A DNA stretch of 64,000 nucleotides from Candidatus Gordonibacter avicola (GCA_019113915.1 DXGM01000039.1:1-64000), one strand, 5' to 3'; positions 55,070 through 64,000 are shown, counted from the first letter of the stretch. Made by a program: numbers and translations. Notes: a model not told the origin generated them from the sequence alone.

Positions 55070-55363
55070 ATGAATATTCTTGCCGACATCAAAACACCCA
55101 CCGATATCACCCAAGATCTCATGACGCGCGTGCGTGCGCGGCGCAAGGTTCTTGGGCTCACGCAACGCGAACTCGCCGAAACATCCGGTGTGAGTTACGG
55201 CTCCATAAAGCGCTTCGAAACAATGGGTGAAATATCCCTCGCGTCCCTCATCAAAATCGCCTTCGCCCTCAAGTGCGAATCCGACTTTGACGCTCTCTTC
55301 GCCCAGCAAGGCTACGCCACCATAGATGAGGTCATCAATGCCCGCAAAAACGCCCGCCGGTAG
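55070..55363 (+). CDS. hipB: HipB-like antitoxin (Xre family)
   Basis: 97 residues with one helix-turn-helix (about 22-75: RARRKVLGLTQRELAETSGVSYGSIKRFETMGEISLASLIKIAFAL). It should bind HipA and the operators upstream, and silence both. No ribosome site precedes the ATG and the -10 box lies seven bases away, so a leaderless mRNA is likely. The hipA gene overlaps its end by 26 bases. Confidence 0.88.
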   Translation: MNILADIKTPTDITQDLMTRVRARRKVLGLTQRELAETSGVSYGSIKRFETMGEISLASLIKIAFALKCESDFDALFAQQGYATIDEVINARKNARR

Positions 55364-56498
55364 ACACCAGTTCGACGAAGTTTCGCTGACGGTTGGTCTG
55401 GAAGGCCGACAGGTGGGAACGCTTGCACTCACACCCGATGGGCTCGCTGCGTTTGCCTATGACGAAGCCTGGCTCGCTGAGGGTTTCAGCATCAGCCCGT
55501 TTAGCTTGCCACTCGAACGGCGCGTATTCGTCCCTAAACTTCACCCGTTCGATGGGTTGTTTGGCGTGTTCGCGGATAGCTTGCCTGACGGGTGGGGGCG
55601 GCTTCTCGTTGACCGACTCATTGCCCAGCAAGGTGCCGACCCCTATGAGGTCGACCAGCTCAATCGCCTGGCCATCGTGGGTTCTTCGGGTATGGGCGCG
55701 CTCACGTACGAGCCGCAGACGGAGTTCGCGCGGCCTGAACAGCTTGAAGATTTGGACGCCATTGCGCAGGAATGTGCCGCCTTGCTGGAAACGGGAAAAA
55801 CGGATGACCTGGACGAACTCTTCGCACTGGGCGGCTCTTCCGGTGGTGCTCGACCAAAGGCGCTGGTGAAGATTGAGGGGGAGGACTGGATTGTCAAGTT
55901 TCCCTCGTCCTACGATGCGCCAAACATTGGAGAAGTTGAGTATCGGTACTCGCTGGCGGCGGGGGAGTGCGGCATTGTTATGCCTGAAACGCGCCTCTTT
56001 CCGTCCAAGCGGTGTGCAGGATACTTTGGCGTTAAGCGTTTTGATCGCATGAAGGGCGGAAAGGGTGAAGCGCCTCTTCGCGTACATATGGTTTCGGCAG
56101 GTGCGCTGCTGGAAGCGTCGCATCGTGTACCAAGTCTCGATTACCGTCATCTTATGAAGCTGACTCTTTCACTCACCAAAAGTATGACCGAAGTCGAGCG
56201 CCTTTACCGTCTCATGTGTTTCAACGTGTTCTTCGGTAATCGAGATGATCACGCCAAGAATTTCTCGTACCTGTACGCCGTGGCAAAGGATCGGTGGCTC
56301 TTATCGCCTGCCTACGACCTCACGCCGAGTGCTGGCATGAACGGAGAGCATGCAACAACGGTTGATGGCAAGGGCCGCTCCATCGAAGAAGCCGACCTGG
56401 TGGCGGTGGGTGTAGCTGCCGGCTTACCCCAATCTCGATGTGTCGCAATAGCTCGCACTATCCGTGAGGTGGCGGGGGATGCGGGAGTCAAAAGGTAA
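55338..56498 (+). CDS. hipA: HipA-family Ser/Thr kinase toxin
   Basis: 386 residues. The fold follows HipA: an N-terminal subdomain (LEGRQVGTLALTPDGLAAFAYDEAWL...PLERRVF), the glycine-rich loop GGSSGGARPKALV (about 162), VKF with the ATP-binding Lys, the catalytic NRDDHAKNFSY (about 300), and the metal-binding AYDLTPSAGM (about 328). All kinase residues seem present, so it should be active; E. coli HipA phosphorylates glutamyl-tRNA synthetase and induces persistence. ATG 55338 is preferred because GAGG lies six bases upstream, within hipB. It directly precedes the DGR target gene but is not known to belong to such systems. Confidence 0.93.
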   Translation: MPAKTPAGRHQFDEVSLTVGLEGRQVGTLALTPDGLAAFAYDEAWLAEGFSISPFSLPLERRVFVPKLHPFDGLFGVFADSLPDGWGRLLVDRLIAQQGADPYEVDQLNRLAIVGSSGMGALTYEPQTEFARPEQLEDLDAIAQECAALLETGKTDDLDELFALGGSSGGARPKALVKIEGEDWIVKFPSSYDAPNIGEVEYRYSLAAGECGIVMPETRLFPSKRCAGYFGVKRFDRMKGGKGEAPLRVHMVSAGALLEASHRVPSLDYRHLMKLTLSLTKSMTEVERLYRLMCFNVFFGNRDDHAKNFSYLYAVAKDRWLLSPAYDLTPSAGMNGEHATTVDGKGRSIEEADLVAVGVAAGLPQSRCVAIARTIREVAGDAGVKR

Positions 56499-56544: not shown

Positions 56545-56574
56545 TTTACATGAAACGCGAGCAATGGCTATACT
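56545..56574 (+). promoter_or_regulatory. Promoter of the DGR target gene
   Basis: TTTACA (56545-56550), 18-base spacer, TATACT (56569-56574). The predicted start near 56581 gives a leader of about 58 bases before ATG 56639. GAGGAAGAGAAG before the ATG is the ribosome site. Confidence 0.7.
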
Positions 56575-56638: not shown

Positions 56639-59600
56639 ATGCGGCAAAGCAGCTATCGGAATAAGAGCCAGAGCGTCGCTGCGGCGGGGCTGTCGGTTCT
56701 TCTTGCAGCAAGCCTAACGCTGGCTTCTGTAGGGTCGGCCTTTGCGGTCGACAACGAAAACCTCGCGGGGGGGGGGCTCTAAGCCTTTAACCTCCGCAGG
56801 TCAAGACGCAGAATCGGAAAAAAATGCGTCGGGTGTTACCCAAATTCTCCCGTCCGGTCAAACGGTCGGTTCCCTCCCTCTCTCGCAGGGAGAATCCAAA
56901 GCTTCTATCGGTTCCCTCCACTATGATGGCCTCGTGTATGAGGTGTGCTCCGACGGCGTTTCGGTTGCACTTGTTGGATGGTATGGAACCGCTCCCACGG
57001 GCACCATCACGGTTCCGGCCCAGGTCATAAGTGGGGCCGACTCTTACACCGTCACCTCCGTAAAAAGTTTCGCAACGGAAGGCTCACCCGCTGACCTTTC
57101 TGCTGAATCTCTTGCGCTTCCCGATACTATCAGTGATATCGCAGACGGGGCTTTCAACAGCTGCCCGTCGCTTGCGCGCATCACCATCAATTCCCAAAAC
57201 GAGAACCTCATGTCGTTTGACGGCATGGTGTTCACGAAAGATATGGCTCAACTCCTGTCCATTCCCGAGGGCAAGGAGGGCGTTGCCCACATCCCCGACC
57301 CAACATCTCTTGTCCCGGCTTCCGCATTTTCCCGGTGTGTGAGGCTTTCCCGCATTGAGGTTGGGGAGGGCAACGCCAATTTCACCTCGTGGAACGGTGT
57401 TCTCTATAGCAAAGATAAGAAAACGCTGATTGCGTATCCACCAGGCGTGGGTACCTCAGCGGTCATCCCGGCCGATGTTGAGGCGCTTGGCCCCGATGCG
57501 TTTGCTGGGTGCGAAGCACTTGCCTCAATTGCCGCACTTGGTTTTGTGCGCGACATTGACAGCAAGGCTTTTCCGGAAGAGGTAAAGGCTTCTGCTGTCG
57601 TGGCGCTTCCCTCGGGTGAGGACTACGACGCCCGCAAGGCCGTGTGGGAGAAGGCCGGTTTTGGGAACTTCTCCGCGTCGGCCAAGCCCGGCGATACGGT
57701 GCACCCTGGCGCAGATTCTTCTGACGGACAGAACAAAGACGATGAAAAGGCGGCAAGCGGGTTCGCTTACACGCTGCTTGATGATTACACCCTCTCCGTT
57801 TCCTGGGAGGGTTCCGAAGACCCTGCTGCTGAACTGGAAATTCCCGCAACAGCTGAGGTGAACGGAGCCTCCTATCGCGTGTCTTCGGTTGCTGCGAATG
57901 GGTTTTCCAACCGCGCCTCAATCACGAGCGTGAAACTTCCTGACGGTGTGACCTCCATCGATGAGGGCGCGTTTGCGGGGTGCACTTCGCTTGCAAGCGT
58001 CACATTCCCCGAGGGGTTGCGCGACATTGGCGCACGAGCCTTTGAAGCCACAGCGCTCACCGACGTGTGGCTTCCCGCAAGTGTGACCTCGGTTGACTCG
58101 CGCGCTTTTGCGGCCTGCGGGTCGCTCACGCGTGTTGTAGCTCTGGCCACCCCGGCGGTGGCGGAAGATGTGCTTGCCGGCTGCACCGGCGTATCGGTGT
58201 ACTGCCCCTATAACGCAGAAGGTTCTTATCCCTGGATTGTGGGCCTTCCGTCGGCGGGCAATCACCTTTTGCCTTACGGGGTGGAACTGGCGGCTGACCC
58301 ACTATCCCTTGAGACGGGCCAGGAAGCAGATCTGCTCGAAGGTGGCCTTTTGGAAGTCCCCGAGCCCGTGGAAACTTCCTACTCCTACGCCGCCTCTCCC
58401 TTATCAGTTGATGCTGGCACCGTTTCGGCAAAAAAGGCGGGCGCAACCGACGTGACCGCCGTGCTCTCATTGGATGGCGAAGAACTCGCCCGCTCAAGCC
58501 GGACGGTGGAAGTGGCTGCCGGCCCTGACGACGATGAGGATCTCTCCGGTTCAGACATCCCCATGATAAACAAGACGGAGTCGCTCATCCCCGGAATCTA
58601 CCTTGCCGAAGCTCGCGCCTCGGCTGTCAACGTGACGGCCCCTATCGCGGTTACGTTCGGGGGTGCGGGCTACGACGTGTCGAAAGCGCAGTCAAGCCTG
58701 ACTGCTTCCGCAACGTTCCAGAACAATACTGACACTTCCGTTACCATGACGAAGATCGATTGTAACAATCAAGGTGCCGCGACCTTGCTGGAGGCGACGT
58801 CGGGAACGCTGGATTCGCAGAAGCTGTTCAGCCTGTATCCAGGAAGCGACACCGCCAAGGCGGTCAGTTTCGGCTACGGCACTGGCGTGAACAGCGCTAC
58901 TCCAGCGTCCGGTGCGTTCGATATCGCGGCGAGCGATATGCTCGACTGCACATTCCGCCTGAACCTCAGCAGCGCGAAGGTCAAGGCGTCAGCCGCGGAC
59001 GGCGGTGCGACGGTACAGTCGCTCGCGAACGTGTCCTATACGTTCGAGGCGAACGAATCGTTCTACCTCCTCGATAAGGCGTCAGGTACGAAGTACGACC
59101 TGACCACCGTGAAGGCCCATGCAGCCGATATCTCATCGAAGGGAACGGGCTCGTCGTACTACTCGAAGTACAACGCCTACATCGCCGACGACAGCAAGTA
59201 CGAATGCTGGACGAAGTGGGGTGGCGTCCTTTATGAGGTGCGTATCATTGGCATTTATCATGATGAAAAGACTTCCGGGGGCAAGGCAGGCTTGACGTTC
59301 CAGTTCAAGAACCTGCTGAATACGACGTATCGCATGAATTCCACGAACACGAATACGGGCGGTTGGGGAGCGAGCGAGCTTCGGGCACGGATGAACCCCG
59401 GCACGGACTCGGTTGCCAATGGCACCGACGACAACGCCATCTGGAACCAAGTGCCGAGTGATTTGCAGAACGCCATCGCTCCAGTCAAAAAATATTATGG
59501 TCCAACGTATAGTTCAACTGCTTCAACGGTCAGCACGTCCAACGACAGCCTCTTCCTCGCCAGCTATCGTGAGCATTCGAACACGATCTACAGCGGTGGG

Positions 59601-59861
59601 AACTACGCAGGTAAAGGGTGGATATCGGCAGAAGGGTCTCAATACGAGTATTGGCAGGGCAAAGTGCCCAATAACTACGCTGCCAATGCGAGTTTGGTGA
59701 AGGGTCTCCAGGCGACTCCGTCGACGGCTGTCAGTTGGTGGGAGCGTTCTGTGAGTCCGAACGACGACACGATTTTCCTTCGTGTGAACACGAACGGCGA
59801 CCCGACCGACCACATCGACGCGAGCAATGCCTATGGCGTGTGCCCCTGCTTCTGCCTCTAA
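56639..59861 (+). CDS. DGR target: secreted BspA-LRR / C-type-lectin-like (DUF6273) protein, out of frame at a G10 tract
   Basis: ATG 56639 opens a Sec signal peptide (MRQSSYRNKSQSVAAAGLSV..., cleavage near SAFA/VDN), but this frame stops at 56780-56782, after a G10 tract (56767-56776). The rest of the protein (over 1,020 residues) continues one frame over, to TAA at 59861. One G fewer would join both into one protein of about 1,070 residues. The body has two BspA-like leucine-rich blocks (LPDTISDIADGAFNSCPSL; LPDGVTSIDEGAFAGCTSL), an Ig-like part, and a C-terminal C-type-lectin-like DUF6273 domain (GWGASELRARMN, IWNQVPSDLQNAI). That domain ends in the variable repeat (WWERSVSPNDDTIFLRV...ASNAYGVCPCFCL). 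No LPXTG or lipobox, so it is secreted or held non-covalently. It can be a phase-off copy, a true frameshift, or a sequencing error. Confidence 0.85.
56767..56776 (+). repeat. G10 tract, candidate phase-variation switch
   Basis: Ten G exactly at the join of signal peptide and mature protein. G10 leads to GGGL-stop; G9 (or G12) reads GGGSKPLTSAGQDAE and continues to 59861. Such tracts change length by slipped-strand mispairing. Confidence 0.75.
59711..59853 (+). repeat. DGR variable repeat (VR)
   Basis: 143 bases at the 3' end of the target gene, aligned without gaps to the TR 2,810 bases downstream (62521-62663). They differ at 59711, 59734, 59755, 59763, 59773, 59781, 59782, 59808, 59811, 59815, 59817 and 59849. 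At each of these the TR has A. Nine Asn (AAY) codons of the TR have become Ser, Ser, Asp, Ile, Arg, Asp, His, Ile and Asp. The shared GC-rich 3' end (CTATGGCGTGTGCCCCTG) is the likely initiation-of-mutagenic-homing site. Confidence 0.97.
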
Positions 59862-59876
59862 TCCAACATCTTGAAT

Positions 59877-59900
59877 CTGCCGGGGCTGTGTCCCCGGCAG
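59877..59900 (+). other. Hairpin/cruciform downstream of VR
   Basis: CTGCCGGGG (59877-59885), loop CTGTGT, CCCCGGCAG (59892-59900): a perfect 9-bp stem 23 bases after the VR and 15 bases after the stop. There is no T tract. In phage BPP-1 and other DGRs a similar short hairpin just after VR is needed for efficient target recognition. It may alternatively end transcription. Confidence 0.6.
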
Positions 59901-60002
59901 AGGTTACGAATAAGGCTCGGCCACCGGTTGAACAAAACGGGGTCTCGGGCATGCGAAACCCGCCATGTGGCGTTGAACCTCGAAAGGAACGTGCGATAAG
60001 CC

Positions 60003-61751
60003 ATGCCGACAAGGAAGAGAGAACCGAAAATCCGCGTGCTCGTCCGCGTTGTGATGGCGTGCATGGTTGCAGCCGTGCTGGTGGTGCCGGTTGGCCTTGT
60101 GTCGGCTTTCGCCGACACGTCGCTCGGAATCCGCATCGTCGATTCGACGAAGACTCCAGGGGCGGGCGACGGCTCTACCGTGCTCGGCATTCGCGTGACG
60201 GCTCCCACGTATACGATCACATGGAAAGCGAACGGCGGAAACTGGTCCGGTTCGGCCGCCGACAAGACCACGTCTGTCGTTTACGGGGCTGCCACGTCCG
60301 CGCCCGCGAATCCCGTGCGCACCGGCTACACGTTCAAAGGCTGGTCGACAACGGCTGGCGGCTCCGCAACGACGCTGCCCTCCGCAACGACCGCCGCCGC
60401 AACGTGGTATGCGGTATGGGCGGCTGACTCCTACAGCATCACCTACGACCTGCAGGGGGGCACCGCCACGGGAAACAACCCCACCTCCTACACCGTGGAA
60501 ACGGCTAACTTCACCCTGTCGAACCCCACGCGTGACGGTTACACGTTCGCCGGTTGGACGGGCTCGAACGGTACGACGCCCCAGACCACCGTCACCGTGC
60601 CCAAGAACTCCACAGGGGTCAGGTCGTACAAGGCGAACTGGACGGCCATTTCCTACAGCATCACCTACGACCTGCAGGGGGGCACCGCTACCGGCAACAA
60701 TCCCACCTCCTACACCGTGGAAACAGCCAGCTTCACCCTGTCGAACCCCACGCGCGACGGCTACACGTTCGCCGGTTGGACAGGCGCGAACGGTACGACG
60801 CCCCAGACCACCGTCACCGTGCCCAAGAACTCCACGGGGGTCAGGTCGTACAAGGCAAACTGGACGGCCAACTCCTACACCGTCACGTTGGACCGCGGCG
60901 CGGGTACGGGCGGCTCGACGACAGCAAACGCGACGTACGACTCTGCCTTGCCCGCCATCCAGACGCCTTCGAGGGCGGGCTACTCCTTCATGGGCTACTA
61001 CGACGCCGTGGATGGCGGCACGCAGTACTACACCTCGTCCGGTGCGAGCGCCGCGAAATGGAACAAGACCTCAAACGCCACGCTGTACGCGCGCTGGCAG
61101 GCGAACAAGTACGTGGTGTCGTTCGACGCCAACGGCGGGTCGGGCGGCCAGACCGCCTCGGTGGACGCCACTTACGATGCCGCCATGCCGGCAATCTCCG
61201 CGACGCCTCCCGAGCGGCCGGGCTACACGTTCGCCGGTTGGTACGACGCGAAGACGGGCGGCAACCAGTACTACACCGCGGCCGGTGGTAGCGCCGCGAG
61301 CTGGAACAAGACCGAAGCCGCAACGCTCTATGCGCAGTGGACGTTGCAGGTGGTTTGCAGCGTGCCCTCGGCCGCGCTCGTCACGGTGGACGCCGCGGGC
61401 AACGTGTCCGGACAGAACCAGACGTTCTCGTCCTCCACAGTGGAGGATATCAAGGTGACGGCGGTGAAAAGCGGGAGTCTCGACGGGGCGTCCTCAGTGT
61501 TTGCGGATGAGGCTACCAGGACAGGCGTGCGGGTGACGCTTACTCCGCCGGTAGGGGCGGGGACGGCGGTGGAGGTTCCGCTTGTTACGACAGGCAACGG
61601 CGTGGTGACCGATTTCACTATTGGTAGCCAGGGCACGCTCGTGGTGGCATTCGGTTTGAAGCTTCCCGACGGCGCCCGATTAACGTACGAGCCCGACGTG
61701 TCGCGCGATATCGCCAGCCTCACCTATGTGGTGGCCGCTGCCAGGCCTTAG
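60003..61751 (+). CDS. Secreted protein with InlB B-repeats, inside the DGR cassette
   Basis: 582 residues. An N-terminal Sec signal (about 10-38: VVMACMVAAVLVVPVGLVSAFA) is followed by five Listeria-Bacteroides/InlB B-type repeats (motif GYTFAGWTG, GYSFMGYYDA, YTFAGWYDAKTGGNQYY). Two of these, encoded by 60432-60653 and 60654-60875, are nearly identical 74-residue units. The C-terminal domain (about 460-582) is beta-rich and unassigned; there is no LPXTG, lipobox or membrane anchor. Such repeats occur in adhesins. It carries no VR copy. It starts 141 bases after the target stop and 210 bases before avd, and may be the target's binding or surface partner (inference). AAAGGA lies rather far (about 16 bases) from the ATG. 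Confidence 0.88.
   Translation: MPTRKREPKIRVLVRVVMACMVAAVLVVPVGLVSAFADTSLGIRIVDSTKTPGAGDGSTVLGIRVTAPTYTITWKANGGNWSGSAADKTTSVVYGAATSAPANPVRTGYTFKGWSTTAGGSATTLPSATTAAATWYAVWAADSYSITYDLQGGTATGNNPTSYTVETANFTLSNPTRDGYTFAGWTGSNGTTPQTTVTVPKNSTGVRSYKANWTAISYSITYDLQGGTATGNNPTSYTVETASFTLSNPTRDGYTFAGWTGANGTTPQTTVTVPKNSTGVRSYKANWTANSYTVTLDRGAGTGGSTTANATYDSALPAIQTPSRAGYSFMGYYDAVDGGTQYYTSSGASAAKWNKTSNATLYARWQANKYVVSFDANGGSGGQTASVDATYDAAMPAISATPPERPGYTFAGWYDAKTGGNQYYTAAGGSAASWNKTEAATLYAQWTLQVVCSVPSAALVTVDAAGNVSGQNQTFSSSTVEDIKVTAVKSGSLDGASSVFADEATRTGVRVTLTPPVGAGTAVEVPLVTTGNGVVTDFTIGSQGTLVVAFGLKLPDGARLTYEPDVSRDIASLTYVVAAARP
60432..60875 (+). repeat. Two tandem 222-bp repeats
   Basis: Units 60432-60653 and 60654-60875 differ at only a handful of bases (for example GGGAAACAACCCC against CGGCAACAATCCC). 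They lie in frame within the InlB-repeat gene, so recombination could change the repeat number without breaking the frame. Confidence 0.85.
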
Positions 61752-61893
61752 GCGCGACACCGATGGCAGAGGGACGAGGCTTGTACCGCGTCTGGCACCA
61801 ACCCCGAAGTGGTGCGAAAGGCTCGTGCAGCAACGAGCGAAATACAATGTAACAGACCGCTTTCCGACACGAATGCTTTATTGCCAAGTGTGG

Positions 61894-61930
61894 AATATAG
61901 CGCGCATGCTACAATGGCCCGCGCTATATT
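61894..61930. promoter_or_regulatory. 11-bp inverted repeat around a -10-like box upstream of avd
   Basis: AATATAGCGCG (61894-61904) and CGCGCTATATT (61920-61930) are exact inverse copies 15 bases apart. Between them lies GCTACAATGG, whose TACAAT resembles a -10 box, 46 bases before avd. It fits an operator controlling avd-TR-rt, or a stem-loop ending the upstream gene. Confidence 0.5.
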
Positions 61931-61961
61931 CGCCTGCATCTTCGCGAAAGGCCTTCGTTGT

Positions 61962-62483
61962 ATGAGCGTACCCAAGTACAAACGGGACACCGCGCCCGCC
62001 GAGTTTGTGAGAACCGCCGCCCAGCTTGAGGCTTTTACGGGGAAGATGTGTGCTCGCCTGCCCAAACGATGGGCCTTTACGCGTACCCGTTACATCACCG
62101 ATTGTGCCAATGATATTCTCAATCATGCGGTACGGGCGAATGCCATTTGGGTCACCACTCCAGAAGAAGTGGCTCAGCGCATGGCGCATCTGATGGAAGC
62201 TCATGCCGCCTGCTACACGCTACTGCGCAAAATTGACATAATCGAAGAGGAAATGCCGGTGCGTATAGTGGATAACGTGAACCCTGATGGCACGATAGTA
62301 AAAAGGGAAAAGCCCTGCCTGAGCGCCGGACTACTTCGCGAGTGGACGGTTTTGGCGACCAAAGAGATAAAGCTTATTAAAGGAGTTATTAACTCCGATC
62401 GCAAGCGCTTTTCGACGAAGCGCCATCCCCTTGCGCAAAAGAAAGGCACTGCGTATAGTAGAAAATGCTCACGAAGCGTATAA
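61962..62483 (+). CDS. avd: Avd-like accessory variability determinant of the DGR
   Basis: 173 residues, basic, predicted almost wholly helical with blocks such as TRYITDCANDILNHAVRANAIW, VAQRMAHLMEAHAACYTLLRKIDIIEEEM and SAGLLREWTVLATKEIKLIKGVINSD. These are typical of the four-helix-bundle Avd/bAvd family that binds the DGR reverse transcriptase and TR RNA. It is longer than BPP-1 Avd, mainly from a basic C-terminal tail (SDRKRFSTKRHPLAQKKG). Its place directly before TR and rt is the usual one. ATG 61962 is used; the frame is open upstream but covers the palindrome. The 3' end contains a likely promoter for the TR RNA. Confidence 0.88.
   Translation: MSVPKYKRDTAPAEFVRTAAQLEAFTGKMCARLPKRWAFTRTRYITDCANDILNHAVRANAIWVTTPEEVAQRMAHLMEAHAACYTLLRKIDIIEEEMPVRIVDNVNPDGTIVKREKPCLSAGLLREWTVLATKEIKLIKGVINSDRKRFSTKRHPLAQKKGTAYSRKCSRSV
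62431..62459 (+). promoter_or_regulatory. Candidate promoter for TR RNA and reverse transcriptase
   Basis: TTGCGC (62431-62436), 17-base spacer, TATAGT (62454-62459), inside the 3' end of avd. The predicted start near 62466 is about 55 bases before the TR. Confidence 0.45.
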
Positions 62484-62520
62484 GTGTTTCGAGGGCGAGA
62501 GGGAAGGGCGGCATCTGATA

Positions 62521-62663
62521 AGCGACTCCGTCGACGGCTGTCAATTGGTGGGAGCGTTCTGTGAATCCGAACAACGACACGAATTTCCTTAATGTGAACA
62601 CGAACGGCGACCCGACCAACAACAACAACGCGAGCAATGCCTATGGCGTGTGCCCCTGATTCT
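62521..62663 (+). repeat. DGR template repeat (TR)
   Basis: Non-coding donor of the VR. It contains 38 A among 143 bases; 12 of these differ in the VR, while none of the 105 other bases do. It is rich in AAY codons in the VR frame, including four adjacent Asn codons in CCAACAACAACAACGCG. In that frame it ends in TGA at 62657-62659, where the VR has TGC. After 62663 similarity stops. It starts 37 bases after avd and ends 282 bases before the reverse transcriptase. Confidence 0.97.
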
Positions 62664-62945
62664 CATCGCGGAAGAGACCAAGTAGCGCAACTGAATGCGT
62701 GAAAGCATAGAGGATGAGAAGGAGATGCTGTCCTGGCGGCCGTCAACCGCCGAACTTGTAAGAGCCGCGTGAAACCACCTCTGCGGCCGCTGCGGACTCG
62801 CTGCCAGAAGGCGGCGTCTGGCCTGTGCGTACTCTTTCGAGTGGCAGGGTTTCAGGCAGCGGAGCACCCGAGAGGCCTTTTCAGGCGCGCGGCTCATTGT
62901 TTTGCCCCAAACTGATGAACGCCAGCGGGAAAGGGTCTTCGGTTT
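62664..62945 (+). other. TR-rt spacer, probably the 3' part of the DGR RNA
   Basis: 282 bases without a gene. In known DGRs the RNA beyond TR is structured and needed for cDNA priming by the reverse transcriptase. Here GCCAGA (62803-62808) and TCTGGC (62817-62822) can pair, within a GC-rich stretch. The role is inferred from position. Confidence 0.5.
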
Positions 62946-64000
62946 ATGAATGCTGCTCAGCGCAAACGGCGCCGGGAACGCCGTGAAGCACGGCGCCTGC
63001 TCAAAGCGCGCTTGGACTTGCAGAGCTGCCTCGACTTCGACCACATGAGCGATCCGGCTGTTCTTTCCACCTCGGCGCTCGCTTGCGAAAAAGACGTGCG
63101 GTGGAAGCGAAGCGTGCAAACGTTCATGCTAACGCGCATGAAAAACTGCATCGAATTGTCGGATGAGCTGCGCAGTGGTCGGTATCACAAACGGCCCGCC
63201 AATCATTTTGTGTTGCACGAACGCGGACATGCGCGTTGGATATCGGCGGTGCACTTTCGCGACCGCGTGGTGCAAAAAGCGTACTGTGACCAGTTCCTTA
63301 TCCCAGTGCTTCATCGCGCGGTTGTCTACGACAACACTGCCTCGCAGGTGGGCAAGGGGACCGATTTCGCTCGCGACCGCTTTGCCCTGCATATGGAACA
63401 GGCGCTGCGTCATTTTGGGCCGAAAGCATGGCTGGTCAGCTACGACTTCAAAAGCTATTTCGCCTCCATTGACCCTGGTCGTGCAATGGAAATGATTGCC
63501 TCGGCCACCGCGCCGCTCGTTGCCTGCCAACGTGACCGCGACAATGCCACCAAAATGCTGGAACTGGGTCGTACGTTCATTTGCGAAGAAGAGGGCTTGG
63601 GTCTGGGGAATCAAACAAGTCAGGTGGTGGCCATCGCGTATGCGAGTCCTATCGACCATGCCGTGCGGGAAGTGTGTAGGTGCGGGCTGTCGGGGCGCTA
63701 CATGGATGACAGCTACGCCTTTTGCCGAACGAAGGATGATGCCTATGCGGTGCTTGCCGTGGCGCAAGAGCACGCGCGGCGCTTGGGGTTGGTGCTGCAT
63801 CCTCGAAAGACCCAGGTGGCTCCAGCGGCGCGGCGCCACGTTTATTTGAAAACGGTGTTCTGCCCGCAGCCTGATGGGTCCATTCGCCGTGACATTGCAC
63901 GTGACACCATCAGGCGTTATAAGCGTCACTACAAGGCACTTGTGGGTTTGGTAGCCGCAGGACGCATCCCGGCCGAGGTGCTTGCCGTGAGCGAAGGCTC
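62946..64000 (+). CDS. DGR-type reverse transcriptase (runs off the window)
   Basis: At least 351 residues; no stop before the window end. It copies TR RNA into adenine-mutated cDNA that replaces the VR. Visible RT motifs: HARWISAVHFRDRVVQKAY (early finger blocks), SYDFKSYFASID (motif A, catalytic Asp near 167), GLGLGNQTSQVVA (motif B; the SQ in place of the retroviral SP and the GNxxSQ form are DGR hallmarks), and GRYMDDSYAF (motif C, YMDD, near 252), then HPRKTQ. The Arg-rich N-terminus (QRKRRRERREARR) is probably RNA-binding. There is no maturase or endonuclease domain so far. ATG 62946 is used; a second in-frame possibility was not seen. Confidence 0.96.
   Translation, partial: MNAAQRKRRRERREARRLLKARLDLQSCLDFDHMSDPAVLSTSALACEKDVRWKRSVQTFMLTRMKNCIELSDELRSGRYHKRPANHFVLHERGHARWISAVHFRDRVVQKAYCDQFLIPVLHRAVVYDNTASQVGKGTDFARDRFALHMEQALRHFGPKAWLVSYDFKSYFASIDPGRAMEMIASATAPLVACQRDRDNATKMLELGRTFICEEEGLGLGNQTSQVVAIAYASPIDHAVREVCRCGLSGRYMDDSYAFCRTKDDAYAVLAVAQEHARRLGLVLHPRKTQVAPAARRHVYLKTVFCPQPDGSIRRDIARDTIRRYKRHYKALVGLVAAGRIPAEVLAVSEG

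Follow-up and report, generated by a model that had tools for sequence, protein, structure and literature searches.

Components of the retroelement at the locus

A 64,000-nucleotide stretch of DNA from Candidatus Gordonibacter avicola (GCA_019113915.1, DXGM01000039.1:1-64000; "the window" denotes this whole stretch) carries, from position 56,639 onwards, a complete chromosomal, bacterial diversity-generating retroelement (DGR). It comprises a target gene with a 3' variable repeat (VR), an avd-like gene, a template repeat (TR) and a reverse transcriptase (RT) gene, all on the + strand (Table 1). The first-pass annotation of the window had described these parts, including the GNQTSQ and YMDD motifs, and a Coriobacteriia-type host; all the parts were found, and the host belongs to the family Eggerthellaceae of the class Coriobacteriia. 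The genome is a draft assembly of 49 contigs, with one assembly for the species; in the comparison set L-numbers denote loci and G-numbers genomes. We consider it probable that this bacterial DGR rewrites the lectin tip of a leucine-rich repeat (LRR) protein ending in DUF6273, that a run of G in the target gene serves as a switch, and that the gene stands in a family of 15 operons of former DGR targets.

The TR and VR are 142-bp direct repeats with 92% identity. The first-pass annotation had named VR differences away from TR adenines as the sign that would speak against a DGR; within the assembly, the repeat extended to 144 bp showed 12 mismatches and all 12 were at TR adenines. In a shifted 144-position frame with 38 A there were 12 A-site mismatches and one non-A mismatch at the edge, and the probability of all 13 mismatches falling on A by chance was computed as 5e-9 for this frame. 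Ten of the 12 A-site mismatches fall within 59734-59817, and nine asparagine codons of the TR are changed to Ser, Ser, Asp, Ile, Arg, Asp, His, Ile and Asp in the VR. The 3'-most difference, A to C at 59849 (TGATT/TGCTT), is of the same kind as the last difference in 46 of 62 high-scoring DGR pairs, and by this comparison it is a fixed TR/VR mark of the DGR clade. Since it marks TR against VR, it is not to be counted as diversification. A single TR was found in the genome, and its distance from the VR is 2810 against roughly 620-1000 in most relatives, because the InlB-repeat partner gene sits between them.

The RT has 387 amino acids and is the only RVT_1 match in the genome; it ends at 64109, beyond position 64000, so the window cuts it. 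It carries LGNQTSQ, where most family relatives have GSEPNQ. The single RT sequence gave no match against the genome contigs, and an alignment with family relatives was used instead, which led to 80 named RT loci. These were scanned for TR/VR pairs, both as a positive control and as a test of RT membership, and an A-specific pair was found beside 69 of the 80 (70 of 81 when the window is included in the same scan). The best PDB match of the RT profile was 8ub7 (1.3e-40), which we take to be the RT of the DGR of the Bordetella phage BPP-1, and the next family followed at 2.6e-15. Both the pairs beside the relatives and the profile match point to membership of the DGR clade; an RT outside that clade had been the other sign named against the first-pass reading. 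The avd-like gene matched phrog_3206 (annotated in PHROG as Avd protein of DGR) weakly, at 2.1e-5, and its product is 38% identical to the gene lying between VR and TR in the DGRs of Adlercreutzia mucosicola and A. muris; it had no Pfam match and no meaningful match in the PDB. In another member of the family (G116), the frame just 5' of the RT (L101:1183-1500) encodes an N-rich, TR-like stretch, GNLNNNNANNGN.

The target had been expected to be a secreted, LRR-bearing protein with a C-type-lectin fold, and the signal peptide, the BspA-type LRRs and the structure model of the C-terminal DUF6273 agree with this. The model of the C-terminal 221 residues had a predicted template modelling score (pTM) of 0.80 and a predicted local distance difference test score (pLDDT) of 75, with weak stretches between residues 131 and 172. 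Its best fold match was 9qa6, the N-terminal part of the IgA peptidase of Thomasclavelia ramosa (Z 15.0 over 179 residues), followed at a middling Z of 5-6.5 by many C-type lectins and the variable protein 1 of T. denticola. DUF6273 is the name used for that domain in the IgA-peptidase paper (PMC12402451), and other work describes it as a C-type-lectin-like DGR target of phages (PMC10743442; also PMC11792537). On the basis of the model, the variable domain is predicted to be C-type-lectin-like. When the alignment of the target domain was compared with viral contigs no relative was found, and a viral origin of the target is thus not supported.

A hairpin follows the VR, and a post-VR stem of at least 7 bp was found in 56 of the 70 DGRs against 1.9% of shuffles. 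In BPP-1 such a hairpin is required for efficient retrohoming (Guo et al., PMC3240598). The hairpin was not called as an intrinsic terminator, having no T tail. Known RNA families were searched for in the cassette and none was found.

Table 1. Features of the DGR cassette (positions counted from the first nucleotide of the window)
Feature	Position	Strand	Remarks
Promoter-like site TTTACA-18-TATACT, 5' of target	56545..56574	+	weak: 3 sites vs 2.0 expected (shuffles)
Target gene 5' part, signal-peptide frame (MRQSSYRNKSQSVAAAGLSVLLAASLTLASVGSAFA...)	56639..56782	+	ends directly past the G10 run
G10 run, adjoining the signal peptide	56767..56776	+	putative slipped-strand ON/OFF switch
Target gene body, BspA-type LRR (LRR_5) and C-terminal DUF6273	56742..59861	+	1039 amino acids
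C-terminal lectin-like domain (predicted)	59196..59858	+	contains VR
VR (variable repeat)	59712..59853	+	
Post-VR hairpin	59876..59901	+	stem 10 bp TCTGCCGGGG, loop CTGTGT, no T tail
Secreted InlB-repeat (List_Bact_rpt) partner	60003..61751	+	gene 2 of target operon
avd-like accessory gene	61962..62483	+	
TR (template repeat)	62522..62663	+	
DGR RT	62946..64109	+	window holds 62946..64000; motifs LGNQTSQ and YMDD

The guanine run in the target gene

The region marked in the first-pass annotation begins at 56639; the target gene has a signal peptide and a protein body, but as assembled it is not a single open frame from that position. Neither the frame break at the run described here nor the family of paralogs had been noticed in that annotation. 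The ATG at 56639 opens the signal peptide, its frame stops just past a run of 10 G (G10), and the body lies in a different frame that is joined to it at this run. When run lengths were simulated, a protein of 1082-1084 amino acids was obtained only with 9, 12 or 15 G; as the assembly has G10, the target is OFF as assembled. The run thus sets the reading frame of the target, and we infer that slippage should switch it ON and OFF.

The break at G10 is weak evidence when taken alone, and its recurrence among the paralogs adds weight. Runs of G10-G13 were found in 12 of the 15 DUF6273 paralogs of this genome, directly after the signal peptide, about 310 nt further on, or at both places; among the copies in which none was seen, two are cut by contig ends and L059 has no run. 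One paralog (L053) is in frame at both runs. In L003, L054, L061 and L064 the apparent signal peptide and the rest of the protein lie in different frames, with alternative starts blurring the last three. At a similar position, runs were also seen in about ten additional large secreted proteins encoded by the genome. Non-DUF6273 proteins with G9-G13 after the signal peptide include large secreted LRR, InlB-repeat, SLH and SpaA-fold proteins (L070, L071, L075, L076, L078, L088, L089, L072 and L067). In an LRR-DUF6273 gene of another genus (G055; L217), the signal peptide is followed by runs of G11 and G10.

The recurrence of G10-G13 at two fixed places, seen in many paralogs as well as in further large secreted proteins with LRRs, together with the runs in the gene of the other genus, makes it improbable that this is an ordinary DGR whose target is always expressed, with the frame break a product of assembly error or chance. 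What favours this alternative is that 10 G differ from 9 by a single base, that a draft of 49 contigs may misstate a G run by one base, which also counts against the reading that we favour, and that poly-G runs are common in the family. Also on its side, several contigs (L081, L051, L055, L056, L069 and L073) stop at a G run or only a few bases from one. Such ends may stem from copies of repeats, or from run lengths that were mixed in the population sequenced.

Of 138 genomes from the family, 110 had runs of at least 10 G. The species is thus not alone in having the device, and it is its presence in a DGR target that stands out. No in-frame G run was found among the 69 other DGR targets scanned, about ten of which are cut at the 5' end. 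In L177 a G9 run lies just upstream of the DGR target frame. Between the post-VR hairpin and avd, A. mucosicola has G10 (L133:8943-8952) and A. muris G9 (L109:8943-8951), and the run could affect avd expression. Runs of at least 10 G also occur at the start of, or inside, regulatory genes of the genome, namely those for a GHKL histidine kinase, two LuxR-type regulators and a GGDEF-EAL protein (L090:4969-5997, L073:5214-6074, L085:2043-2426 and L091:1492-4068), which suggests that these regulators, too, may be switchable. A literature search that went mostly without subscription papers brought up no report of a DGR whose target is subject to poly-G or slipped-strand switching, and with this coverage the absence of such a report is not proof of novelty.

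The paralogous operons and their relation to the template

The genome holds one RT and one TR for its 15 DUF6273 target paralogs. Downstream of each of the 15 lies a gene for a secreted protein whose C-terminal domain is conserved and which has from none to several InlB repeats. Such a partner also follows each of the three copies in G055, and the arrangement of LRR-DUF6273 gene, G runs and partner gene is the same in that genus. With 15 of 15 copies so accompanied, the InlB-repeat gene is the normal operon partner of the target; its presence in the cassette, which had been thought unusual, is therefore the rule, and its chance insertion is ruled out.

The target adjoining the RT differs from the TR at no non-A site of the scored block, whereas the other 14 paralogs differ at 17-38 of 83 non-A sites, so the TR is not a recent writer of their VRs. 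None of the 14 has the match to the TR outside adenines that would be expected of remote targets served in trans; the best paralog match to the TR was 76% over 106 bases, and searches for other TRs in the genome, with the target protein (E <= 1) and TR DNA (E <= 10), found none. These differences make it very improbable that one DGR at present acts in trans to diversify many of the 15 paralogs, even though five paralogs, the target included, share the hairpin in perfect or compensated form, the paralogs have codons that look templated by AAY, and Treponema denticola offers a precedent with up to seven targets per TR (PMC4891356).

Codons and hairpins of the paralogs suggest past diversification by a DGR. 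At the 13 AAY columns of the TR, the paralog codons end in C or T (NNY) in 163 of 182 cases, compared with 88 of 154 for the remaining variable columns and 65% elsewhere in the genes, and the bias persisted when the residue was given (82 of 95 against 68.5 expected, P 0.0007). The hairpin is perfect in five paralog copies including the target and has one compensated base pair in L056; in L054, just past the target stop codon, its loop is reversed (ACACAG for CTGTGT), and it looks as if inverted in place. It is decayed in about seven paralogs and absent from L052, L059 and L064. Across the paralogs the arms of the hairpin vary less than do silent VR sites, and in the operons of the other genus no hairpin was found between the genes.

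The hairpin-less L059 groups in the tree with a G055 copy (G055b), with support of 99/99. In this ortholog pair the VR part is identical at 39 of 42 positions against 144 of 228 elsewhere, and the last 43 codons show 19 silent and 4 amino-acid changes; most other pairs of like overall identity (0.57-0.67) have a VR identity of 0.40-0.57. By these comparisons, the VR sites that vary strongly in the other copies are conserved in one that is fixed. These findings suggest that the variable paralogs descend from DGR targets, which is the simplest account of them, with selection alone as the alternative. That the paralogs were never DGR targets, their variability being due to selection on the lectin site and the hairpin serving the operon, is rather unlikely. 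Exposed lectin loops do vary through selection, the hairpin lies between two operon genes, and L064 is without the NNY signature (7/13); against these stand the third-base bias that survives conditioning on the residue, the lack of the hairpin in the other genus and the conservation of its arms.

The DGR reading with descent from former targets has further points to answer. BPP-1-type elements have a 4-nt GRNA loop (PMC3240598) where the loop here is CTGTGT, and the hairpin, placed as it is, could serve expression. The non-A differences of the other paralogs are large, the NNY bias could partly reflect residue selection and is high also in L059, a copy with neither hairpin nor G run, and a single origin of the hairpin-bearing paralogs is not shown by the tree, in which they do not form one clade. 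All of these weigh against it.

A dead prophage remnant was also considered. E. lenta DGRs are known in prophages (PMC8778435), and several related targets resemble phage proteins by eye; here the RT, avd, TR, VR, 3' mark and hairpin are all intact and the neighbouring genes chromosomal, which leaves such a remnant quite improbable. In the reading of open frames, a GMP-synthase-like gene and a permease are followed by hipBA, the cassette and carotenoid-type genes, with a phytoene-desaturase-like gene downstream of the cassette; the hipB/hipA-type toxin-antitoxin pair lies at 55070-56498 (Pfam), directly 5' of the target operon.

Comparison with known systems and implications

In the DGR reading, the RT and Avd would copy the RNA of the TR, making errors at adenines, and the resulting cDNA would replace the VR at the 3' end of the LRR-DUF6273 gene, guided by 3' identity with the TR and by the hairpin just past the gene. 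If retrohoming takes place at present, about a dozen residues of the lectin-like domain would be rewritten, and replication slippage at G10 would turn the protein, presumably displayed at the surface, on (9, 12 or 15 G) and off. Together with its InlB-repeat partner, the target would make up one of 15 two-gene operons, 12 of them with G10-G13, whose paralogs would be former DGR targets spread through the genome and now a switchable repertoire, the RT-adjacent copy alone still matching the TR.

The element shares with BPP-1 the RT, Avd, TR, a VR at the 3' end of a C-type-lectin gene, the post-VR hairpin and the adenine-specific differences. Its target is a bacterial secreted protein and not part of a phage tail; a partner gene lies between VR and avd, the hairpin loop is not GRNA (PMC3240598), and the target carries G10. 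The DGRs of A. muris and A. mucosicola (L109, L133), from the same family, have an RT 37% identical with LGNQTSQ, a DUF6273 target, the related avd and a related TR-encoded peptide (NWWERS.NPNN.), but their target has about 378 amino acids, a zinc-ribbon-like start, no LRR or signal peptide seen and no G run in its frame, and their VR-TR distance is about 735. The TvpA DGR of T. denticola is similarly bacterial; its lectin-fold targets are exported, and several of its target genes are remote. Its remote VRs match the TR, whereas here only the cis VR does, and the accessible text on it mentions no poly-G switch (PMC4891356). Gut-phage DUF6273 targets (phages nd4/nd12 and Faecalibacterium prophages) likewise have the VR inside DUF6273 with a C-type-lectin fold, but they are phage proteins, and LRR, operon family and G run go unmentioned in the accessible parts of those reports (PMC10743442, PMC11792537). 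The run resembles those of poly-G phase-variable surface genes of Neisseria, Campylobacter and Helicobacter, in which an in-frame homopolymer sets the frame; no combination of these with a DGR was described in the papers found. The DGR is of a known kind in a new setting, and its novelty lies most strongly in the G run of the target together with the surrounding operon family.

We tentatively propose, at somewhat less than even confidence, that these devices are stacked: the DGR would rewrite the binding face, the G run would hide or reveal the lectin, and copies of diversified operons, having spread, would form a switchable archive of fixed binding specificities. In the OFF state of the G run, variants could accumulate unselected. 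Since the model's nearest match in fold is to the DUF6273 of an IgA peptidase from a gut bacterium, host or microbial proteins are candidate ligands, if the domain binds a ligand, though this is a lead only. The role of bacterial, as against phage, DGRs is an open question in the field. In the present case the DGR acts on a secreted LRR-lectin from a family of gut commensals, with a putative second on/off switch and a gene family that seems to record past diversification. If this reading is true, it would open to test the way in which a commensal keeps the production of variants apart from their exposure, and the way in which the products of a DGR turn into fixed genes.

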